Shown here in pieces: positions 4,567-25,980 of a stretch of DNA of 64,000 nucleotides. Within the stretch, counting starts at the first letter, position 1; each line of letters starts with the position of its first letter. The notes beneath the pieces were generated by a model. The model worked only from the letters and a program-made list of their open reading frames with translations. It did no database searches and was not told where the DNA came from. This stretch comes from Natronolimnobius sp. AArcel1 (GTDB lineage: Archaea > Halobacteriota > Halobacteria > Halobacteriales > Natrialbaceae), in the NCBI RefSeq assembly GCF_011043775.1, contig NZ_JAAKXY010000002.1:434001-498000 (forward strand), read 5' to 3'. Position numbers and translations under genes: made by a program.

Positions 4567-5043
4567 CTACTCTCGAGGCGACTCCTCGAGTTCGTCGGCC
4601 TGCTCTTGAATCTCCTGGAGCGCCTGTTCTTGCTCGCCGCGAGCGAGGCCACCCGATTCGACGTGGCGGCCACCGTACTGCCAAGACGGAATCGCGTTCC
4701 AGACGCTCGAGTCGCCGCCATCGTCGCCATCGCGGTCGCGGCCCTGATCCTGATCCGGAGTCTCGTCGCTGCTCGAGCGGGACGACCAGAGGACTGCAAG
4801 CAAGACGAGTACGGCAGTGCCAGCGAGCAGGACCGACGCAGGGTCGCTTAGTGACCCGCTGTCGATGACCGACGAGCGCATGAGCACCGAGGTAACGAGC
4901 AAGACGGCGACAGCGGCGAGTCCGACGCGACGGAACCACGAGCGCCGTGGCGAAGCGGTAGCTGCGCTGTCAGCGTCGGAATCAGGACTTGCCGCAGTGC
5001 GAGTCTCACCGGGAGGGTCAGTATCGGACGCCGGAGGTGACAT
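4567..5043 (-). CDS. Haloarchaeal membrane protein of unknown function
   Basis: A 158-residue protein with an acidic, Ser/Thr-rich cytoplasmic-like N-terminus and two hydrophobic segments, VGLAAVAVLLVTSVLM (about 40-55) and VLLAGTAVLVLLAVLW (about 70-87). Then comes a long Asp/Gly/Ser linker and a conserved-looking C-terminal block (SSVWNAIPSWQYGGRH, then GLARGEQEQALQEIQEQA) that could be a short coiled coil. The ATG at 5043 is preferred over the GTG at 5049. The gene converges on priL with a 17-base gap. I do not recognise a function. Confidence 0.7.
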   Translation of the reverse strand: MSPPASDTDPPGETRTAASPDSDADSAATASPRRSWFRRVGLAAVAVLLVTSVLMRSSVIDSGSLSDPASVLLAGTAVLVLLAVLWSSRSSSDETPDQDQGRDRDGDDGGDSSVWNAIPSWQYGGRHVESGGLARGEQEQALQEIQEQADELEESPRE

Positions 5044-5112
5044 AGTCACGTTCGAGTAGCGATGGTAAAAAAGAGCGGGGCACCGTTACTGGCAGTGAAA
5101 CAACAGGATCAG

Positions 5113-5379
5113 TTAGTACGCGTTCTGTGCCTCGAGATCGTCGCTATCGTCTTCGATCTCGTTGCTCGGATCGTTCAGGACGAACGCGAGCAAGATCCCG
5201 ATGACGGTCATGAGAATAATAAATCCGATGATGGTGTAGACGAGGAGTTCGCCGCCCTCAGGCTGGAGGACGCCGCTTTCGTCGCCGTAGGTCGTGCCGA
5301 TCCAGATCATCGTGCCGAGCATTCCGAGGACGGCACCAACGGAGACGACGATTTCAATGAGTTGCTCTCGGTCGAGCAT
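5113..5379 (-). CDS. Small two-helix membrane protein
   Basis: An 88-residue protein with two predicted membrane helices (IVVSVGAVLGMLGTMIWIG, about 10-28, and LLVYTIIGFIILMTVIGILL, about 46-65), a short acidic loop between them and an acidic C-terminal tail (EIEDDSDDLEAQ). It resembles a short haloarchaea-restricted membrane family (possibly DUF7472), but this is recognition by eye only. It lies 55 bases downstream of htpX on the same strand, so co-transcription with the protease is plausible. Confidence 0.65.
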   Translation of the reverse strand: MLDREQLIEIVVSVGAVLGMLGTMIWIGTTYGDESGVLQPEGGELLVYTIIGFIILMTVIGILLAFVLNDPSNEIEDDSDDLEAQNAY

Positions 5380-5434
5380 TATGACGTCGCTTTTGTCGGC
5401 CAGGCCAAAAACGCTTCGAAGCGCTCGAGCGGTT

Positions 5435-6325
5435 CTAGACCGCTGCCATCTGTTTCTCGAGGTCGCGCAGTTGCTCGATTCGGTTTTCGGTCGCGGGGTG
5501 CGTGCTGAACAGTTGCCCGACGATACCAGATTTGATCGGGATGATGAAGAAGGCGTTCATCTCGGCTTCCTCTCGCATGTCGTCTTTTGGCACCTGATCC
5601 ATCTTCCCGGAGATTTTCATGAGCGCGGAGGCGAGCGCACCGGGGTTGCCCGTGATCGCTGCGGCACCGCGGTCTGCGGCGTACTCGCGGTATCGGGAGA
5701 GCGCCCGGATCAGCAGGTAGCTGATGATCCAGACGACCAGCGAGACGAGGATGGCGACGACGATGCCACCGCCGCCTTTGCCGCCACGGTTGCCACCGCC
5801 GCCAAAGAACGCACCCCAGCGGACGATCATGAACGCAATTGTCGAGAGGAACGACGCGATGGTCATCACCATCATATCGCGATTTTTCACGTGGGCGAGT
5901 TCGTGGGCGATGACGCCGTCGAGTTCATCTCGCTCGAGGGTATCCATCAGCCCGGTGGTGACGGCGACGACGGCGTTTTTCTGATTTCGACCGGTTGCAA
6001 ACGCGTTCGGAACGTTCGAGTCGATGACTGCAACTTGGGGTTTCGGCACATCGGCTTGCTGTGACAGGCGTTCGACCGAGCCGTGCAGTTGCGGGTACTC
6101 ATCGGCTGAGACCTTCTGTGCGCCCATACTGCGCAGCGCGAGCGAGTCGCTGAAGTAGTACTGCACGAGGGACATGCCGCCAAACAGCACGCCGAAGACG
6201 AGCAGATTCGGACCTCCAGTCAGATAGCCCGTCAGGACACCTGCAAAGACGATGTACAGTGCAAACAGCAGAAACATCGTCAGAAACATTCGGAACCGAA
6301 GCCCCCAGTCCGCCTGCCAGTTCAT
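5435..6325 (-). CDS. htpX: HtpX-type membrane zinc metalloprotease (M48)
   Basis: A 296-residue M48 peptidase. Two N-terminal membrane helices (about residues 12-34 and 38-58) are followed by the catalytic module. The zinc-binding helix GVIAHELAHVKNRD is near residue 137 and supplies HExxH. A further hydrophobic pair and the downstream glutamate region EYAADRGAA complete the site. HtpX-type enzymes degrade misfolded membrane proteins. The Gly-rich FFGGGGNRGGKGGGG loop separates membrane segments. A TATA-like acacttattcc on the minus strand, about 27 bases upstream, suggests a leaderless start. It diverges from nmd3 across the ORB-like intergenic region. Confidence 0.92.
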   Translation of the reverse strand: MNWQADWGLRFRMFLTMFLLFALYIVFAGVLTGYLTGGPNLLVFGVLFGGMSLVQYYFSDSLALRSMGAQKVSADEYPQLHGSVERLSQQADVPKPQVAVIDSNVPNAFATGRNQKNAVVAVTTGLMDTLERDELDGVIAHELAHVKNRDMMVMTIASFLSTIAFMIVRWGAFFGGGGNRGGKGGGGIVVAILVSLVVWIISYLLIRALSRYREYAADRGAAAITGNPGALASALMKISGKMDQVPKDDMREEAEMNAFFIIPIKSGIVGQLFSTHPATENRIEQLRDLEKQMAAV

Positions 6326-6416
6326 AGTTCGTGTACGTGCTCAGGCGGAATAAGTGTCACCAACGGAACGCTCTTCATATGTGCGATAATTGAATATTCT
6401 CGAGGCGATGATGGAC

Positions 6417-17580: not shown

Positions 17581-18597
17581 ATGAACCTCACACATCGCCC
17601 CCGACGACTGCGACGGGATGGCATTCGCGGCCTCGTCAGTGAGACGACCCTCGAGCCCACTGACCTCATCGCCCCCATCTTCGTCGACGCGACGACCGAC
17701 GAACGCATCGCCATCGAGTCGATGCCCGGCCACGAGCGCGTCCCAATCGACGACGCCGTCGCTCGCGTCGAGGAAGTTCTCGAGACGGGCGTCGAAGCCG
17801 TCATGCTCTTTGGCATTCCCGAATCCAAAGATTCCGAGGGGACCCGTGCCTGGGCCGACGACGGCGTAGTACAGGAAGCAACACGCCGCATTACGGACGC
17901 CACCGACGCCTACGTCATCACCGACGCCTGTCTCTGTGAGTACACCGACCACGGCCACTGCGGCCCGCTCGAGGAGGAACTTCGCGGCAACGAGAGCCAC
18001 GAACACGACGCGGACTGTGCGCACGATCCAACGCTGACTGTCGACAACGACGCGACGCTCGAGGCGCTCGAGCGCATTGCCGTCTCCCACGCAGAGGCGG
18101 GCGCGGATATGATCGCACCGAGTGGCATGATGGACGGCATGGTCGGGGCGATTCGTGACGGACTCGACGAGGCAGGCTATGAAGACGTCCCGATCATGAG
18201 CTACGCGGCGAAGTACGAGAGCGCCTTCTACGGGCCGTTCCGCGACGCAGCAGACGGCGCGCCCTCCTTCGGGAACCGGCGACACTACCAGATGGATCCC
18301 GCGAACGCACGCGAGGCCATGCGCGAGGTTCGCCTCGACGCCGAACAGGGCGCGGACGTGATGATGGTCAAGCCCGCCCTGCCCTACCTCGACATCATCA
18401 GCGCTGTCCGCCGAGAGTTCGACCACCCCGTCGCCGCCTACAACGTCTCCGGCGAGTACGCCATGCTCCACGCCGCCGCCGAGAAGGGCTGGCTTGATCT
18501 CGAAGACGTGGCCCTCGAGTCGCTGCTCTCGATCAAACGCGCGGGTGCGGATCTGATTCTAACGTACTTCGCGGAAGACGTTGCGCGCGAGTTGTAA
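17581..18597 (+). CDS. hemB: Porphobilinogen synthase (5-aminolaevulinate dehydratase)
   Basis: A 338-residue enzyme that condenses two 5-aminolaevulinate molecules to porphobilinogen. The metal-binding Cys segment [14 protein letters not shown] is near residue 117. The Schiff-base Lys regions [14 protein letters not shown] (near 205) and [10 protein letters not shown] (near 260) are intact, as is [12 protein letters not shown] His/Asp-rich insert ([12 protein letters not shown]) lies near 140. It starts a set of tetrapyrrole genes: hemL is 2.4 kb downstream, hemC-cobA-hemD 5.4 kb downstream. Confidence 0.96.
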
Positions 18598-19015
18598 CTC
18601 TCTCACGTCGATCCCGATTTTGACGAACGTCAATCCGTTCCCTCGAGCAGTGCGAGTGTGGCAACATCTGCCGCGCGCGAGCAGCGTTGCCGGTCTCGAG
18701 GCGTGATTTGAGGGATAATCGCCACTCGAGTGGGGAATTACCGTTGCGAGGCAGTGAACAAATGGCCAATATATAACGACTATCGAAAACGAGGGCGAAG
18801 TTCAACACCATAATACACATTATATCTATTTTAAATTCTGACAATACACCCTAATACGCGCCATTTCCAGACGAACACCAACGCTAACCCTTATATTGAG
18901 TAAGTCCATGCCAGTCAAACGTGATTCAGAACACAAGCGGATGTAGATTGGGAGAATTGGTGGACAAACGTCTATCGATATTCGATAGTGTGGCGGATTC
19001 CGTGGGGGCACGCGA
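18598..19015. other. Gene-free upstream region of amt
   Basis: This 418-base stretch holds no convincing ORF. Notable content is several A/T-rich islands (18760-18785, 18815-18850, 18890-18903 with ttatattgag) and the palindrome at 18972-18988 next to the amt start. It is much more A/T-rich than flanking genes, as expected for regulated promoter DNA. Confidence 0.6.
18972..18988. promoter_or_regulatory. Palindromic candidate operator of amt
   Basis: CTATCGA (18972-18978) and TCGATAG (18982-18988) are perfect arms around TAT. The centre (cgatattc) is also the best TATA candidate about 35 bases before the amt ATG. A repressor bound here would occlude TBP. It does not match the GGAA-n6-TTCC form reported for the archaeal nitrogen repressor NrpR. 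Confidence 0.45.
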
Positions 19016-20821
19016 ATGATCGAACTTCTCGAGCCGGTCGCCCTGCAGACGGAAGGCGACCTCGAGTCGCTTGCAACCGGGATGAACCTGATGTGGGCGC
19101 TGACGGTCACGTTCCTCATCTTCTTCATGCACGCCGGCTTCGCGATGCTCGAGGCGGGTCAGGTTCGTTCGAAGAACGTCGCGAACCAGTTGACGAAGAA
19201 CATGCTAACCTGGGCAATCGGTATCTTCGCGTTCTTCGTGATCGGGATGGGGCTCTCGAACAACGTCGGCTCGATGCTCGGTGGCGGTGAATCGGGCCCA
19301 CTAACGATGTTCGGCGAAGGCTCGTTCGACTGGGCGATGTGGCTGTTCAGCGCGGTGTTCGCGATGACGGCTGCAACGATTGTCTCCGGTGCTGTCGCCG
19401 GCCGCGCAAAACTCCGCGCGTACGTGGCCTACACCTTCCTGCTTGCAGCACTGATCTACCCAGTCGTCGCGGCGCTGGTCTGGTACGCCCCTGGTGGCGA
19501 ACCGATCCTCGCACAGTTCGGCTTCGCTGACTTCGCAGGCGGCATGGTCGTCCACGGTGTCGGCGGCGTCGCCGGCCTCACCGCAGCGTGGATCCTCGGC
19601 GCTCGCATGGACAAGTACAACGACGACGGCAGCGTCAACATTATCCCCGGTCACTCGATGACGTTCGCCGTTCTTGGCACCTTGATCCTCTGTTTCGGTT
19701 GGTTCGGCTTCAACGTCGGCACCGCCGCAACAGTCATCGACCCCGCAACGCTCGAGTTGGCTGACTTCGATTACGTCGGCAGCGTCGCCATGGTCACCGC
19801 ACTCGGCATGGGTCTTGGCGCACTCGGTGCCTCGACCGTCTCGCTCGTGATGAACGGCAAGGTCGACACGCTCTACGTCGCAAACGGCATGCTCGCCGGC
19901 CTCGTCGGCGTCACCGGTCCGACGGACCTCATCACGCCGATGGGCGCAATCGCGATTGGTTTCCTCGCTGGCGCACAGCTCCCGATTGTGTTCAAATTCG
20001 TCGAGCAGAAACTCAAGATCGACGACGTCTGTGCAGTCTTCCCGGTCCACGGTTCCGCCGGGATGCTCGGCCTGATCATCTACCCGCTGTGGTCCATCGA
20101 GGGCACGGCAATCGGCGGTGGCGTCATCGCCGGCGGCATCTTCTCGATTGAAGCAAGCGCGTTCGTCCCACAGATCGTCGGCGTCGCCGTCATCACGATC
20201 TGGACGGTCGCCGCAACCTCAGCCGTCTGGGGCGCGTTCAAAGCCATCGGCCAGGCACGCGTCACTACCGATCACGAACGTGACGGACTCGACCTCTCCG
20301 AGCACGGCGTCGACACCTACCCCGAATTCGGCAAACCTGACGTCGCCACCGACGGCGGCATGACAACTGACGACGATGCAGAAGATCGCATCATCCGCGC
20401 GGACGGCGGTGAGCGAATCGAGGACGAATCGCGATCCTCGTCAGTGCTTCGCACTGACGGTGGTGAGCCAAACGACGGCGAACTCAAGATGGTCACCGCG
20501 ATCATCCGTCCCGATCGCCTCGGCGCAGTAAAAAAGAGCCTTGCAGAGACTGGCGCACCATCGTTGACCGTCACCAACGTCTCCGGTCGCGGCTCCCAGC
20601 CCGCAAAGAAGGGCCAGTGGCGCGGCGAGGAGTACACCGTCGACCTCCACCAGAAGGTCAAAATCGAGTGTGTCGTCGCCGACATCCCAGCGGAGGAAGT
20701 CGTCGAAGCAATCGGTGAGGCTGCAAACACCGGCGAACCCGGCGACGGCAAGATCTTCGTGCTCCCTGTTGACGGTGCCTACCAGGTCCGTACCGGTAAC
20801 ACCGGGCAGGACGCGGTCTAA
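19016..20821 (+). CDS. amt: Ammonium transporter fused to a P-II signalling domain
   Basis: A single 601-residue frame. Residues 1-425 are an Amt/Mep/Rh channel with about 11 membrane helices. Pore residues are visible in [12 protein letters not shown] (near 183) and [11 protein letters not shown] (near 342). A 65-residue acidic cytosolic linker has two similar GGE-containing blocks. Residues 492-601 are a P-II domain: [15 protein letters not shown], the T-loop stretch [16 protein letters not shown], and the signature [14 protein letters not shown] proteins normally plug Amt as separate trimers; here one is tethered. The T-loop lacks the usual KGHTE-type segment ([10 protein letters not shown] instead), though the Tyr is kept. 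Confidence 0.95.
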
Positions 20822-20982
20822 ACGAAACGCAACTCGAGTCGATCTGCGATATCTCTTTTGACTGTGCTATCGAATCGGAGTGAGTGGAAGCGATAGCCGA
20901 ACCCGGCATACGACGGGCTGACTCGAGGCGGTAGCAATCCCACCCCGGTACTACTTTCCCGACGGATTGCTTACGGCCAGCT

Positions 20983-22257
20983 ATGAACGACGACAACTCA
21001 CGCGAACTGTACGACCGAGCGCTGTCTGTCATGCCCGGCGGCGTCAACTCGGCCGTTCGAGCGGCAATCGAACCCTACCCCTTCTTCGTGCAGAAAGGCG
21101 ACGGCGGTCACGTCATCGATGCGGACGGCAACCGTTACATCGACTGGGTGATGGGTCTTGGCCCGCTGATGCTGGGTCACGATCTGCCACAGCCAGTCCA
21201 GTCGCGCATTCAGCAGAAAGCGAGCGAAGGGCCGATGTACGGGACACCGACCGAAATTGAGGTCGATATGGCAGAGTTCGTCGTCCGCCACGTCCCAAGC
21301 GTCGAGAAGATCCGATTCGTCAATTCGGGCACCGAAGCGACCGTCTCCGCCGTGCGCCTCGCACGCGGCTACACCGGCCGGAACAAGATCGTCATCAACC
21401 AGGGCGGCTACCACGGCGCACAGGAATCGACGCTGGTCGAAGGCGATGCCGAAAACCCTGCACCGTCTTCGGCAGGCATCCCGCAGTCGTTCTCCGAACA
21501 TACCCTCCCGGTGCCCTTTAACGACGAAGAAGCCGTCCGCGAGGTCTTCGAGGAACACGGCGACGACATTGCCGCGGTCATGACCGAACCGATTCTCGGC
21601 AACTACGGGATCGTCCACCCGAACGACGGCTATCACGACTTTTTGCGGGAGATCACCGAAGAACACGGCTCCCTGCTGATCTTCGACGAAGTGATCACCG
21701 GCTTCCGCGTCGGCGGCCTCGGCTGCGCTCAGAGCGAGTTCGACATTACCCCCGACCTCACCACATTCGGCAAGATCATCGGCGGCGGCTTCCCCGTCGG
21801 CGCAATCGGCGGCAAAGCGGAACTCATCGAGCAGTTCGCCCCTGCCGGTCCCGTCTTCCAAGCTGGAACCTTCTCCGGCCACCCCGTCACGATGGCCGCC
21901 GGCCTCGAGACGCTCAAATTCGCTGCGGAGAACAATGTCTACGAGCATATTGACGGCCTCGGCGACCGCCTGCGCGAGGGACTTTCCGATATCGTCGCGG
22001 ATCAGGCACCGGAGTACACCGTCGCTGGCACTGCGGGCATGTTCAAAGTGATCTTCACCCGCGACGGCACGCCACCGCAGAACGCCGCCGACGTGAAAAA
22101 CGCCGAAACTGACCGCTGGCGACGCGTCTTCTGGGGCCAGATGAAAGAGCAGGGCATCTTCCTCTCACAGAACCAGTTTGAGTGCCAGTTCGTCAGCTAC
22201 AACCACACCGACGAAGACGTCGAGCGAACGCTCGAGGCGTACAAGGAAGCGCTCTGA
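20983..22257 (+). CDS. hemL: Glutamate-1-semialdehyde 2,1-aminomutase
   Basis: A 424-residue PLP enzyme that makes 5-aminolaevulinate in the C5 pathway, the step before HemB. The start [20 protein letters not shown] and GVNSAVRA are typical. The PLP Lys is in [18 protein letters not shown] (near residue 262). FDEVITGFR (near 235) supplies the PLP Asp. [15 protein letters not shown] binds phosphate. The length is slightly short for the family but nothing essential is missing. A 160-base spacer separates it from amt. Confidence 0.96.
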
Positions 22258-22324
22258 GCCAGCAGTCTGAGAACGGGCGGTACACGTATCCATCCGCGCG
22301 GGAAACGCTAAGCTACGCTATCGA

Positions 22325-23038
22325 ATGGGTCGAGTGGGAACACCGGTGACAGACGGGGGTGACAAACCGGCGCACAGCCGTGGAACCGACTGGGCACGAC
22401 TCCTCGAGCGGTTACTGTACCTGTTCCCGCCGGTGATCGGCGTCGGGATCGTCGGCGTGTTACAGGACGCAGATCCTGGCGTTCCAGGGCTGCAACAGGG
22501 GTTGATCCTGTTCGGGACGTTCGGCTATACGGTGTTGACTGCCGGCGTGACGGCGACGATAGTTCTCGATGCGCGGCGGGTGAGACGCCAGCCACGAGCC
22601 AGCGGGAACTGGCGACCGCGCCCGTGGCTCAACGCGGCTTTCGCACTGTTGTGGGCCCCCGTTGTGGGTGTCGTCTATCTCGCGCGCCGACACCGCCAGT
22701 TCGGCACGCCGCCGGGGTGGTCGGGCTGGTGGCTCGTCGTCGCGGTCTCGCTCGGGACGACGTTGTTCGGATTCGTCGCGGCGGCGGTCGCAATCGTGTT
22801 CGCGATTCCCGGCCTCTTTACCACCGGAGTCGCCCTCGCGGGGACGATCGCCTTCGGTTCATTCCCGATCGCGATCCACCAGGACGCAGCCTACGTCAGC
22901 ACGGAAAGCACCTCGTGGAACCCAAATCCCGGCGTCTACCTCGGCGTCGCATTTGTGAGCCTGTTCGTCCCGCCGCTACAGCCGCTCGTCGCGAGCTACT
23001 ATCTCGTCCAGCGGCGCAGAGCGGTCGGGACGCCGTGA
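22325..23038 (+). CDS. Multi-spanning membrane protein of unknown function
   Basis: A 237-residue protein with about six hydrophobic segments: LLYLFPPVIGVGIVGVL (about 27-44), ILFGTFGYTVLTAGVTATIV, AAFALLWAPVVGVVYLA, WWLVVAVSLGTTLFGFVAAAVAIVF in two pieces, TTGVALAGTIAFGSFPI, and VYLGVAFVSLFVPPLQPL. A conserved-looking RRHRQFGTPPGWSGWW loop lies mid-protein. It follows hemL by 67 bases. No family recognised beyond haloarchaeal membrane protein; I assign no function. Confidence 0.75.
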   Translation: MGRVGTPVTDGGDKPAHSRGTDWARLLERLLYLFPPVIGVGIVGVLQDADPGVPGLQQGLILFGTFGYTVLTAGVTATIVLDARRVRRQPRASGNWRPRPWLNAAFALLWAPVVGVVYLARRHRQFGTPPGWSGWWLVVAVSLGTTLFGFVAAAVAIVFAIPGLFTTGVALAGTIAFGSFPIAIHQDAAYVSTESTSWNPNPGVYLGVAFVSLFVPPLQPLVASYYLVQRRRAVGTP

Positions 23039-23120
23039 CAGCGACCAGCGGACGGATATGAAAGCGTTAGAAACGGTGTTGACGACCTCACCAGTGCTGG
23101 TCTATGATTAATTCCATAGA

Positions 23121-23130
23121 ATATATAACA
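23121..23130 (+). promoter_or_regulatory. TATA box of the 55-residue membrane protein
   Basis: The run atatataaca is centred about 28 bases before the ATG at 23153, as in other leaderless genes of this window. Confidence 0.5.
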
Positions 23131-23152
23131 GCATAGTAAGTAATTTGCAGGC

Positions 23153-23320
23153 ATGGCTGATTGGAATTGGATTCTTTCCATACCTGCTTCGATCGTGTTT
23201 ATCTTTGCCGGGCTACTCGCTTTCCATCCAACGATTGATCAGCCTATTGGAGGAATATTGATGATCTTGGTAGCAATACTCATACCGATCAAAGCATATT
23301 ACGAGAAGACTCACAAATAA
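23153..23320 (+). CDS. 55-residue two-helix membrane protein
   Basis: ATG at 23153, stop TAA at 23318-23320. The N-terminus MADWNWILSIPAS runs into a first helix (IVFIFAGLLAF), a short polar turn (HPTIDQPIGG), a second helix (ILMILVAILIPIKAY) and a basic tail (YEKTHK). The gene is clearly more A/T-rich than its neighbours and has its own TATA box, suggesting a recently acquired or fast-evolving small gene. No function recognised. Confidence 0.6.
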   Translation: MADWNWILSIPASIVFIFAGLLAFHPTIDQPIGGILMILVAILIPIKAYYEKTHK

Positions 23321-23479
23321 GCGCTTGATGTGATCAATACTGGACCGTATTTTTTACTTCGTGATACTCCAACACTGATCTTCGTGTTCAGCGTCCCTGC
23401 ACTGGTGGAATCGTATAATTCGTTTGTGTGACACCTGACGAACAAGACGAACTGAACCTCACAGGCTGCTCTTTACTCG

Positions 23480-23845
23480 TCACTCCGACGCTGTCACGAT
23501 CACGTCGCGGTAGCCCGCAATCTCCTCGAGCACAGCCTCCCGATCACCTTCGGGCACGTCGTACTCGGCAAGCGTCTCCTCGAGATGTGTCGCAATTGCG
23601 CCGAACTCCGCTGCGTTGATTCCCATGCCCTCGTGGGCGGCGTCCATCTCTGTACCGGTGTACTCGACGGGGCCGCCGGTAACAGAGCTGATGAACTGGG
23701 TCTGGTGGGCCCGCTGTTTCTGCATGTTGGTGTCTTCGAAGTAGTAGGCGACCTGTTCATCTGCGAGGACGCGGTCGTAGAAGTCATCCACGACGGCTGC
23801 GATAGCGTCTTCGCCGCCGAGTCGCTCGTAGAGAGTTTCTGTCAT
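23480..23845 (-). CDS. Truncated (group 1-like) haemoglobin
   Basis: A 121-residue 2/2 globin. MTETLYERLGGEDAIAAVVDDFYDRV is the usual N-terminal helix pair. YYFEDTNMQKQRAHQTQF covers the B/C/E region with the Phe-Tyr and distal Gln positions. GGPVEYTGTEMDAAHEGMGI contains the proximal F8 His (AHEGM). These proteins bind O2 or NO, often in NO detoxification. It sits between tetrapyrrole genes, but on the opposite strand with its own A/T-rich upstream element (plus-strand cgtttaatatga, about 23860). Confidence 0.9.
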   Translation of the reverse strand: MTETLYERLGGEDAIAAVVDDFYDRVLADEQVAYYFEDTNMQKQRAHQTQFISSVTGGPVEYTGTEMDAAHEGMGINAAEFGAIATHLEETLAEYDVPEGDREAVLEEIAGYRDVIVTASE

Positions 23846-23998
23846 CCGGTCATATGTAGCCGTTTAATATGAAATAAATGCCGTCCCGAACACCTTCGAG
23901 CGACGAGTGCCGACCGCCTCGCGTGGTTCGTGGCAACCGTCCGACGAACGCGTCGGACAAGCGTGCGCTTTTCATACTCGAGGCGACGACCTATGCCC

Positions 23999-25138
23999 AT
24001 GAGAACACGCGGGACATTACGACTGGCGACGCGAGGCTCAGATCTCGCTCGGCGCCAAGCCGGCCTCGTCAAAGAGGCCCTCGAGAACCGCCGGTACGAG
24101 GTCGAACTCGTAACCGTCGAGACGACGGGCGACGAAATTCAGGACGAACTCATCCACCGCTTGGGGAAGACGGGGGCGTTCGTCCGCGAACTCGACGAGC
24201 GCGTCCTCGAGGGCGACCTCGACGGCGCAATTCACTCGATGAAAGACATGCCAACCGAACAGCCCGACACCCTCGTGACGGCTGCCGTTCCCGAGCGCGG
24301 CCAGCCAAACGACCTCCTCATCACACCCGAGGGGACGGCACTCGAGGACCTGCCGGAGGGCGCGCTCGTCGGCACCTCGAGTCTGCGCCGGCGCGCGCAA
24401 CTGCTCTCTGAGCGGCCGGATCTCGAGGTCGAACCGCTGCGAGGGAACGTCGATACGCGCGTCGAGAAACTGCTCGCGCCCGCGCTGCAAGCGGAACACG
24501 AAGCGCGAACGGAAGCCGACAAAGAGCGCAAGGGCAATACCGGAGACGAGGACTTCGAGCCCGAATACGACCAAACGGTCGATGAGTGGTTCGACGCGCT
24601 TTCGGAACTCAAGAAGCAGGCACTCGGACGTGAGGTCGAAACCGAATACGACGCGATTGTCCTCGCCGCGGCCGGCCTCGAGCGCAGCGGCCTTGCTCAC
24701 TACGTCGAGTACCAGGAGCTTCCAACCGGGACGTTCGTCCCTGCACCGGGCCAGGGCGCACTCGCGGTGACTGCACTCGACGGCGAGACAGCACAAGAGC
24801 TACAGGGCGTACTCGATCATCCGCGAACCCGGGTCGAGACGACCGTCGAACGAAGCGTGCTCGCCGAACTTGGCGGCGGCTGTATCGCCCCAGTCGGGAT
24901 CTACGCCGTCGTCCAGGGCGAGTACGTCAGTACGACGGTGACCGTCTTCGATCGCGACGGCGAGGAATCAATCGCGACCAGTCGTGACCTCCCGGTCGAA
25001 CGCCACGCCGACGCCGCTCGCGAGTTCGCCCGTGATCTTGCCGAGCGAGGCGCGGAAGAATTGATCAAACGTGCACAACGCGACGCTGACGACGCGGATA
25101 CTGCCGTCTCCGAGGAAGATAAGCCAGCTGGCAAGTAG
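23999..25138 (+). CDS. hemC: Hydroxymethylbilane synthase (porphobilinogen deaminase)
   Basis: A 379-residue enzyme joining four porphobilinogens into hydroxymethylbilane. LRLATRGSDLARRQA, GAFVRELDERVLEGDLDGAIHS and LVGTSSLRRRAQ are the expected substrate-binding segments. GGGCIAPVG (near 290) holds the Cys that carries the dipyrromethane cofactor. It is longer than bacterial HemC because of a charged insert at about residues 161-210 (EADKERKGNTGDEDFEPEY within it). The ATG at 23999 is 26 bases after a TATA-like ttttcata; an in-frame ATG at 23993 is the alternative. First gene of hemC-cobA-hemD. Confidence 0.95.
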   Translation: MRTRGTLRLATRGSDLARRQAGLVKEALENRRYEVELVTVETTGDEIQDELIHRLGKTGAFVRELDERVLEGDLDGAIHSMKDMPTEQPDTLVTAAVPERGQPNDLLITPEGTALEDLPEGALVGTSSLRRRAQLLSERPDLEVEPLRGNVDTRVEKLLAPALQAEHEARTEADKERKGNTGDEDFEPEYDQTVDEWFDALSELKKQALGREVETEYDAIVLAAAGLERSGLAHYVEYQELPTGTFVPAPGQGALAVTALDGETAQELQGVLDHPRTRVETTVERSVLAELGGGCIAPVGIYAVVQGEYVSTTVTVFDRDGEESIATSRDLPVERHADAAREFARDLAERGAEELIKRAQRDADDADTAVSEEDKPAGK

Positions 25139-25152
25139 AGAGAGGTACGGAA

Positions 25153-25980
25153 ATGTCAGGAACCGAGTATGGAGCCGAACCGGACGCCGGGACCGTCTAT
25201 CTCGTCGGCAGCGGCCCCGGCGATCCCGAACTGCTGACCTGCAAAGCCAGACGGCTGCTCGAGGAGGCCGATTTCGTCCTTCACGATAAGCTGCCTGGTC
25301 CGAAGATCATCGACTTGCTGCCCGACGACCGTCGGAAAGATGTGGGTAAACGTGCACACGGCGACCGAACCCCACAATCAGAGATTAACGAACTGCTGGT
25401 CGAACACGCCCGCGACGGACAGTCAGTTGTCCGGCTCAAAGGCGGCGATTCGTTCGTCTTCGGTCGCGGCGGTGAGGAAGCCGAGTATCTTGCGACCCAC
25501 GATGTGCCCTTCGAGGTCGTCCCCGCAGTGACCTCAGCGGTCGCTGCGCCCGCCGTCGCCGGCATTCCGGTCACACACCGTGATCACGCCTCGAGCGTCT
25601 CGTTTGTGACCGGCCACGAAGACCCGACCAAACCCGAGTCCACAGTCAACTGGAAGGCGCTGGCCGAGACTGGTGGGACCATCGTCGTCCTCATGGGCGT
25701 CACCCGTCTCCCCGACTACACCGATGCGCTGTGTGAGGCCGGCATGAATGCTGAAACGCCCGTTGCACTCGTCGAACGCGCGACCTGGCCGAACCAGCAG
25801 GTCGCAACGGGAACTCTCGAGACGATTGTCGAGGCACGCGATACGGTCGGGATCGAACCGCCCGCGATCACCGTCATCGGCGACGTTGCGGGCACGCGCG
25901 ACTCTGTCGTCGAGTTCCTCGCGAACGAGTCCGGTGTTGGCGCTGGTACCGACGGCTCCGCACCAGCAACTCGAGAGTGA
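25153..25980 (+). CDS. cobA: Uroporphyrinogen-III C-methyltransferase
   Basis: A 275-residue SUMT. It methylates uroporphyrinogen III at C2 and C7 to precorrin-2, feeding sirohaem, cobalamin and the archaeal alternative haem route. Signatures are VYLVGSGPGDPELLTCKA at the N-terminus, VRLKGGDSFVFGRGGEEAEYL near 97, and VVPAVTSAVAAPAVAGIPVTHR near 120. The start lies 14 bases after the hemC stop, so the genes form an operon. No HemD or dehydrogenase domain is fused. Confidence 0.95.
   Translation: MSGTEYGAEPDAGTVYLVGSGPGDPELLTCKARRLLEEADFVLHDKLPGPKIIDLLPDDRRKDVGKRAHGDRTPQSEINELLVEHARDGQSVVRLKGGDSFVFGRGGEEAEYLATHDVPFEVVPAVTSAVAAPAVAGIPVTHRDHASSVSFVTGHEDPTKPESTVNWKALAETGGTIVVLMGVTRLPDYTDALCEAGMNAETPVALVERATWPNQQVATGTLETIVEARDTVGIEPPAITVIGDVAGTRDSVVEFLANESGVGAGTDGSAPATRE

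Follow-up and report, generated by a model that had tools for sequence, protein, structure and literature searches.

The window analysed here is a 64,000-nucleotide stretch of the Natronolimnobius sp. AArcel1 genome (contig NZ_JAAKXY010000002.1, positions 434,001 to 498,000). On its forward strand, between two genes of tetrapyrrole synthesis, lies a single gene that encodes an ammonium transporter (Amt) followed by a P-II signaling domain. The features of the locus are listed by position in the window.

17581..18597, + strand: hemB (porphobilinogen synthase), upstream neighbor, assigned with NCBIfam, synteny conserved
19016..20821, + strand: Amt-P-II fusion gene, a single frame with an ATG start, 601 amino acids and no internal stops
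19094..20320, + strand: ammonium transporter domain, residues 27-435 (PF00909, E=2.2e-95, profile positions 2-399 of 399)
20249..20329, + strand: conserved cytoplasmic C-terminal region of Amt, residues 412-438
20324..20482, + strand: acidic linker, predicted to be disordered, residues 437-489 (17 acidic and 6 basic among 53 residues)
20456..20464, + strand: apparent relic of a glnK Shine-Dalgarno sequence, the DGG codons GAC GGT GGT, residues 481-483
20486..20797, + strand: P-II domain, residues 491-594 (PF00543, E=6.9e-26, profile positions 2-101 of 102)
20591..20644, + strand: T-loop with R536 (Arg47) and Y540 (Tyr51)
20983..22257, + strand: hemL (glutamate-1-semialdehyde aminomutase), downstream neighbor, assigned with NCBIfam, synteny conserved

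Amt and P-II are the only Pfam domains in the 601 amino acid protein. Both are complete and in the same frame, and the protein matches the Ammonium_transp and P-II families of Pfam over their full length. No histidine kinase output domain of the Ks-Amt5 type was found in the fusion protein with Pfam. The P-II domain also gives a full-length match to PDB 4ozj (E=5.3e-56), and the P-II fold is present in a predicted model of the monomer, in which a single chain was modeled. The C-terminus of the P-II domain is free and extends to residue 601, an end point shared by 114/117 fused proteins. The earlier note on this DNA, made from the sequence alone, had proposed a covalent Amt-P-II fusion. This was borne out by the continuous frame and by the occurrence of the same architecture at 117 loci.

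The Amt part has F115, W156, D172, H180, W229, F232 and H345 at the pore positions. We take these to be the equivalents of the E. coli residues, with H180 and H345 as the twin histidines and the Asp, Phe and Trp residues at the substrate site. D172, H180 and H345 are invariant in an alignment of 57 fusions. The C-terminal region of Amt is also strongly conserved, with R415, V416, H420, E421, G424, L425, D426, E429, H430, G431 and Y435 invariant across the same 57 proteins. The whole assembly contains one Amt match, which is in the fusion gene. Since the fusion is the only Amt of the genome, retained ammonium transport is favored.

The AArcel1 assembly (22 contigs, 99.74% complete) likewise contains one P-II match, again in the fusion gene. 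The observation that no separate glnK is adjacent therefore holds, and it extends to the whole assembly, where no free GlnK was found. Relatives were then compared, comprising 80 named relatives taken from GTDB species genomes and further loci from genome surveys. Both domains were in one frame in 117/144 loci. Some species are represented twice among the 117 fused loci, which correspond to 103 distinct fused ORFs. Among named relatives, Natrialba swarupiae is the nearest (88%).

Within the Natrialbaceae a P-II domain is present in 117/125 genomes. The fused form occurs in 111 of these 117 genomes; about 101 have it alone, 10 have fused and free forms, and 6 have only a free form. The fused state in this survey was scored by the length of the open frame and corrected for one misleading case, L070. 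In L070 a P-II without an Amt (4738-6366) lies directly upstream of the fused gene and appears to be left over from a duplication of the fusion. No P-II domain was found in the nearly complete Natrialbaceae genomes G032, G043, G047, G101, G207 and G361.

Other haloarchaeal families are mixed, with fused and free forms. Four genomes (G221, G236, G380 and G415) have two long-frame P-II matches in the same orientation and separated by about 2 kb, which suggests tandem fusions. A phylum-wide survey gave no fusions outside the Halobacteria among the 150 best-scoring matches listed. A plasmid protein search identified the same architecture in the Bacillota, in Enterococcus raffinosus, Ruminococcus albus 7, Monoglobus and Subdoligranulum. 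The annotated records examined label these proteins just 'ammonium transporter', a name that hides the P-II domain. The further Amt-P-II fusions that the earlier note proposed to look for are present in haloarchaea and in the Bacillota.

The T-loop was compared across the fused proteins and 35 free haloarchaeal GlnKs. The T-loop string of the AArcel1 protein is identical in 80/117 fused proteins and in 12/35 free GlnKs, and it differs by one residue from that of Haloferax mediterranei GlnK2 (4ozj). Arg47, Gln39, Lys58, Gly87, Asp88 and Lys90 are present in 117/117 fused proteins, and Tyr51 is kept in 109/117. Mean pairwise identity in the fused P-II domains is 94% for the T-loop, the most conserved segment, versus 75% for the core, which suggests that the loop is under selection in cis. 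The T-loop had been described as modified, lacking the usual basic/His segment while keeping Tyr. It is indeed without the KGHAEL of E. coli and does keep Tyr, but two Lys and the invariant Arg47 are present. The description as modified did not survive the comparison, because fused and free haloarchaeal P-II proteins have this loop in common; it is normal for the lineage and independent of the fusion. By sequence, the T-loop of the fusion is an ordinary haloarchaeal loop with the channel-blocking residues intact. Residues 521-545 of the T-loop have pLDDT below 50, and no docking is visible in the monomer model.

Among the P-II ligand residues Arg/Lys9, Gln39, Lys58, Gly87, Lys90 and Arg103 are present and Arg101 is absent. 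Arg101 is a nucleotide ligand in other P-II proteins. Gln takes its place in 114/117 fused proteins and in 32/35 of the free haloarchaeal ones; in AArcel1 this position, Gln in nearly all haloarchaeal P-II, is residue 590 (20783-20785). In the Bacillota fusions L139, L140 and L141, which are on plasmids, Val or Ile stands in place of Tyr51, and Arg47 is kept.

The linker is 51-53 amino acids long in AArcel1, while the median among other fusions is about 30 with a range of 21-70. Residues 431-482 have pLDDT below 50 in the predicted monomer. The earlier note held that a tethered P-II cannot leave. This is probably correct for the membrane and incorrect for the pore, as a disordered linker of 21-70 amino acids should allow the P-II domain to undock while it stays membrane-bound.

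The origin of the linker was sought in haloarchaea in which amt and glnK are separate genes. In the 28 readable junctions of such split operons the end of amt and the beginning of glnK overlap, by 4 nt at 15 junctions and by 8 nt at 13. In 28/28 the final amt codons contain the Shine-Dalgarno-like GGAGGTGA or a close variant. In 97/100 fused genes the residues DGG are found directly upstream of the P-II domain. The codons have changed, with GGA at the first Gly in 4/97 and GGA-GGT in 0/97, ordinary Gly codons being used instead. In 3/103 fused genes a Shine-Dalgarno-like motif is kept at the right distance from a start codon. The segment after DGG, PNDGE(I/L)K, matches N-terminal tails found in some separate GlnKs; examples are MSDEPNDGEVKLV in the separate GlnK of L135 and the tail of 4ozj. 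Because DGG is kept and PNDGE(I/L)K has these matches, the linker appears to consist of the former C-terminus of amt and the former N-terminus of GlnK. It seems to be a relic of the junction between translationally coupled amt and glnK genes, which predicts a single polypeptide.

The tetrapyrrole cluster around the amt-P-II gene (17581-25980) comprises hemB, hemL, hemC and a cobA-type methyltransferase gene. The linkage of amt with hem genes is kept across much of the Halobacteria, in fused and split forms alike. Hem genes adjoin the fused gene in most of the loci compared, and hemB and hemL are both within reach in 51/80. Split pairs occupy the same hem locus, with the order hemB-amt-glnK-amt-glnK-hemL in L150, and in L158 a split pair and a fused gene lie side by side. 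In a tree of the Amt part one haloarchaeal clade is all split (15 rows) and the other contains 62 fused and 7 split members. Well-supported branches force at least 6 changes between the fused and split states, with gain and loss not separated by the tree. The Bacillota fusions form a separate long branch. As split pairs persist inside the mostly fused clade, the tether seems to be favored but dispensable. The sequences point to an origin of the gene at the hemB-hemL locus, where amt and a translationally coupled glnK became joined in frame.

We consider the fusion protein to be probably a working ammonium channel that carries its own inhibitory GlnK/P-II as a gate in cis. A built-in gate had been suggested earlier, and the complete domains, the presence of Arg47 in 117/117 fused proteins and the invariant C-terminal region of Amt support it as the likeliest role. 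The gating and the ligands proposed here are drawn from the E. coli, Archaeoglobus, Methanothermococcus and Haloferax systems. With ADP bound, the Amt pore is blocked by Arg47 of the GlnK T-loop; Mg-ATP plus 2-oxoglutarate move the T-loops off Amt (PMC8395244, PMC6243067, PMC3198391). By analogy, the Amt parts of three chains would assemble into the trimeric channel, with their tethered P-II domains as a second trimer beneath it. Under nitrogen-rich conditions, with ADP bound and 2-oxoglutarate low, the T-loops would enter the three pores and Arg47 (R536) would block them. With Mg-ATP and 2-oxoglutarate the T-loops would splay and withdraw from the pores. The withdrawn P-II domain would be held by the tether of roughly 50 amino acids and could re-dock at once.

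The order of the domains suits a working sensor. A free carboxyl end of P-II is reported to matter for proper binding of 2-oxoglutarate, whereas a tag at the N-terminus had no effect (PMC8395244). As the P-II domain of the fusion is C-terminal with a free carboxyl end, the sensor site should stay usable. Compared with a two-protein system the fusion would fix the ratio at 1:1 and keep the local concentration high, which could matter at molar salt. The E. coli AmtB-GlnK complex comes apart at high salt (PMC4009401), and a tether could therefore be an advantage in a molar-salt cytoplasm. In Haloferax, where GlnK is a separate protein, it associates with membrane AmtB1 upon ammonium shock (PMC3831643).

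Other explanations differ from the cis gate in what the P-II domain does or in whether it stays attached. The tethered P-II could be a membrane-anchored sensor or hub that mainly regulates other targets, for instance glutamine synthetase, with gating secondary. The fusion is the only P-II of a genome that has two glutamine synthetase matches, about 101/117 P-II-bearing Natrialbaceae have the fused form alone, and free Haloferax GlnK is cited in PMC3831643 as activating glutamine synthetase in vitro. We nevertheless regard a hub as unlikely, because the T-loop and Arg47 are conserved exactly as in an Amt plug, access of the large dodecamer to trimers beneath the membrane is uncertain, and any second partner is hypothetical. 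Even less probable is a receptor that senses ammonium and signals to P-II without transporting it. Amt proteins joined to signaling modules can lose transport, as Ks-Amt5 has (PMC5764959), but this is the genome's only Amt and the twin-His and other pore residues are kept, so that we give such a receptor very little weight.

The remaining explanations question the single chain itself. Internal translation initiation or cleavage of the acidic linker could yield two polypeptides and hence a free P-II. The linker is predicted to be disordered, an in-frame ATG is found near P-II residue 3 in 82/103 fused genes, and Haloferax AmtB1-Flag was mostly a cleaved 20-kDa C-terminal fragment (PMC3831643). 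That fragment still held a membrane helix (PMC3831643), however, and in split GlnKs the conserved ATG corresponds to a methionine inside the protein. The survey of Shine-Dalgarno motifs and start codons did not support internal re-initiation of a separate P-II, as the spaced motif seen before the glnK start in every split operon is the exception before an in-frame start in fused genes. The earlier note had named two separate polypeptides in proteomics as a finding that would overturn the fusion; the part of this that can be read from sequence was carried out, and the signals for a second start have been lost. We judge two polypeptides to be improbable, more so than the hub and less so than the receptor. 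A sequencing or assembly error joining two genes was the other such finding. Sister genomes have two genes overlapping by 4-8 nt, which a small indel could join, but a fused frame common to 117 loci, with a junction degraded away from the split form, leaves error or chance with a negligible probability, and we excluded both.

P-II proteins are generally regarded as messengers that diffuse among many targets. It is possible, and we suggest it tentatively, that most Natrialbaceae are without a diffusible P-II and that all of their P-II signaling takes place at the membrane, with channel and regulator forming one receptor. If true, both the blocking of the channel and any regulation of glutamine synthetase would be located at the membrane. 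A lineage whose sole detected P-II is tied to one target would allow gating to be separated from the other roles of P-II with a single gene. An obligate 1:1 protein should also lend itself to structural studies of the gate. The genes have switched repeatedly between the fused and the overlapping state, and, with a lost Shine-Dalgarno sequence kept as amino acids, these switches would document how a coupled pair turns into a single protein.

Amt modules joined to other domains have been noted earlier (PMC5764959). Marsh et al. 2013 included AmtB-GlnK, as a 'prefusion' pair taken from STRING, in a list of complexes with gene fusions in certain species (PMC4009401). That record is a catalog entry, without distribution, junction analysis or function. 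Beyond this STRING-based catalog, no papers on a natural Amt-P-II fusion and no experimental work on any such fusion were found in the searchable open literature. As far as our searches go, the junction relic, the distribution of the fusion, its ordinary T-loop and the absence of another P-II have not been described previously.

In Ks-Amt5 an Amt is covalently joined to a cytoplasmic signaling domain, as in the Amt-P-II fusion, but that domain is a histidine kinase where the fusion has P-II, and Ks-Amt5 is a receptor that lost transport (PMC5764959). The Bacillota fusions (Enterococcus raffinosus, Ruminococcus albus and Monoglobus; L139-L141) have the same domain order, keep Arg47 and have a P-II C-terminus that is free or nearly free, as in haloarchaea; they differ in being a separate lineage with Tyr51 replaced. 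AmtB1/AmtB2 and GlnK1/GlnK2 of Haloferax mediterranei (PMC3831643; 4ozj) belong to the same families and have a near-identical T-loop. In Haloferax the Amt and GlnK are separate polypeptides and the untethered GlnK can act on glutamine synthetase, whereas in AArcel1 they form one chain. The fusion shares the Arg47 T-loop, the P-II ligand residues other than Arg101 and the C-terminal region of Amt with E. coli AmtB-GlnK (2NUU/2NS1). The E. coli proteins are separate, dissociate fully and have other T-loop letters, while the AArcel1 domains are held by a tether of about 50 amino acids. Because a single frame is found in 117 loci, the fusion is best described as a variant of the two-protein Amt-GlnK inhibitory pair rather than an ordinary member of it.
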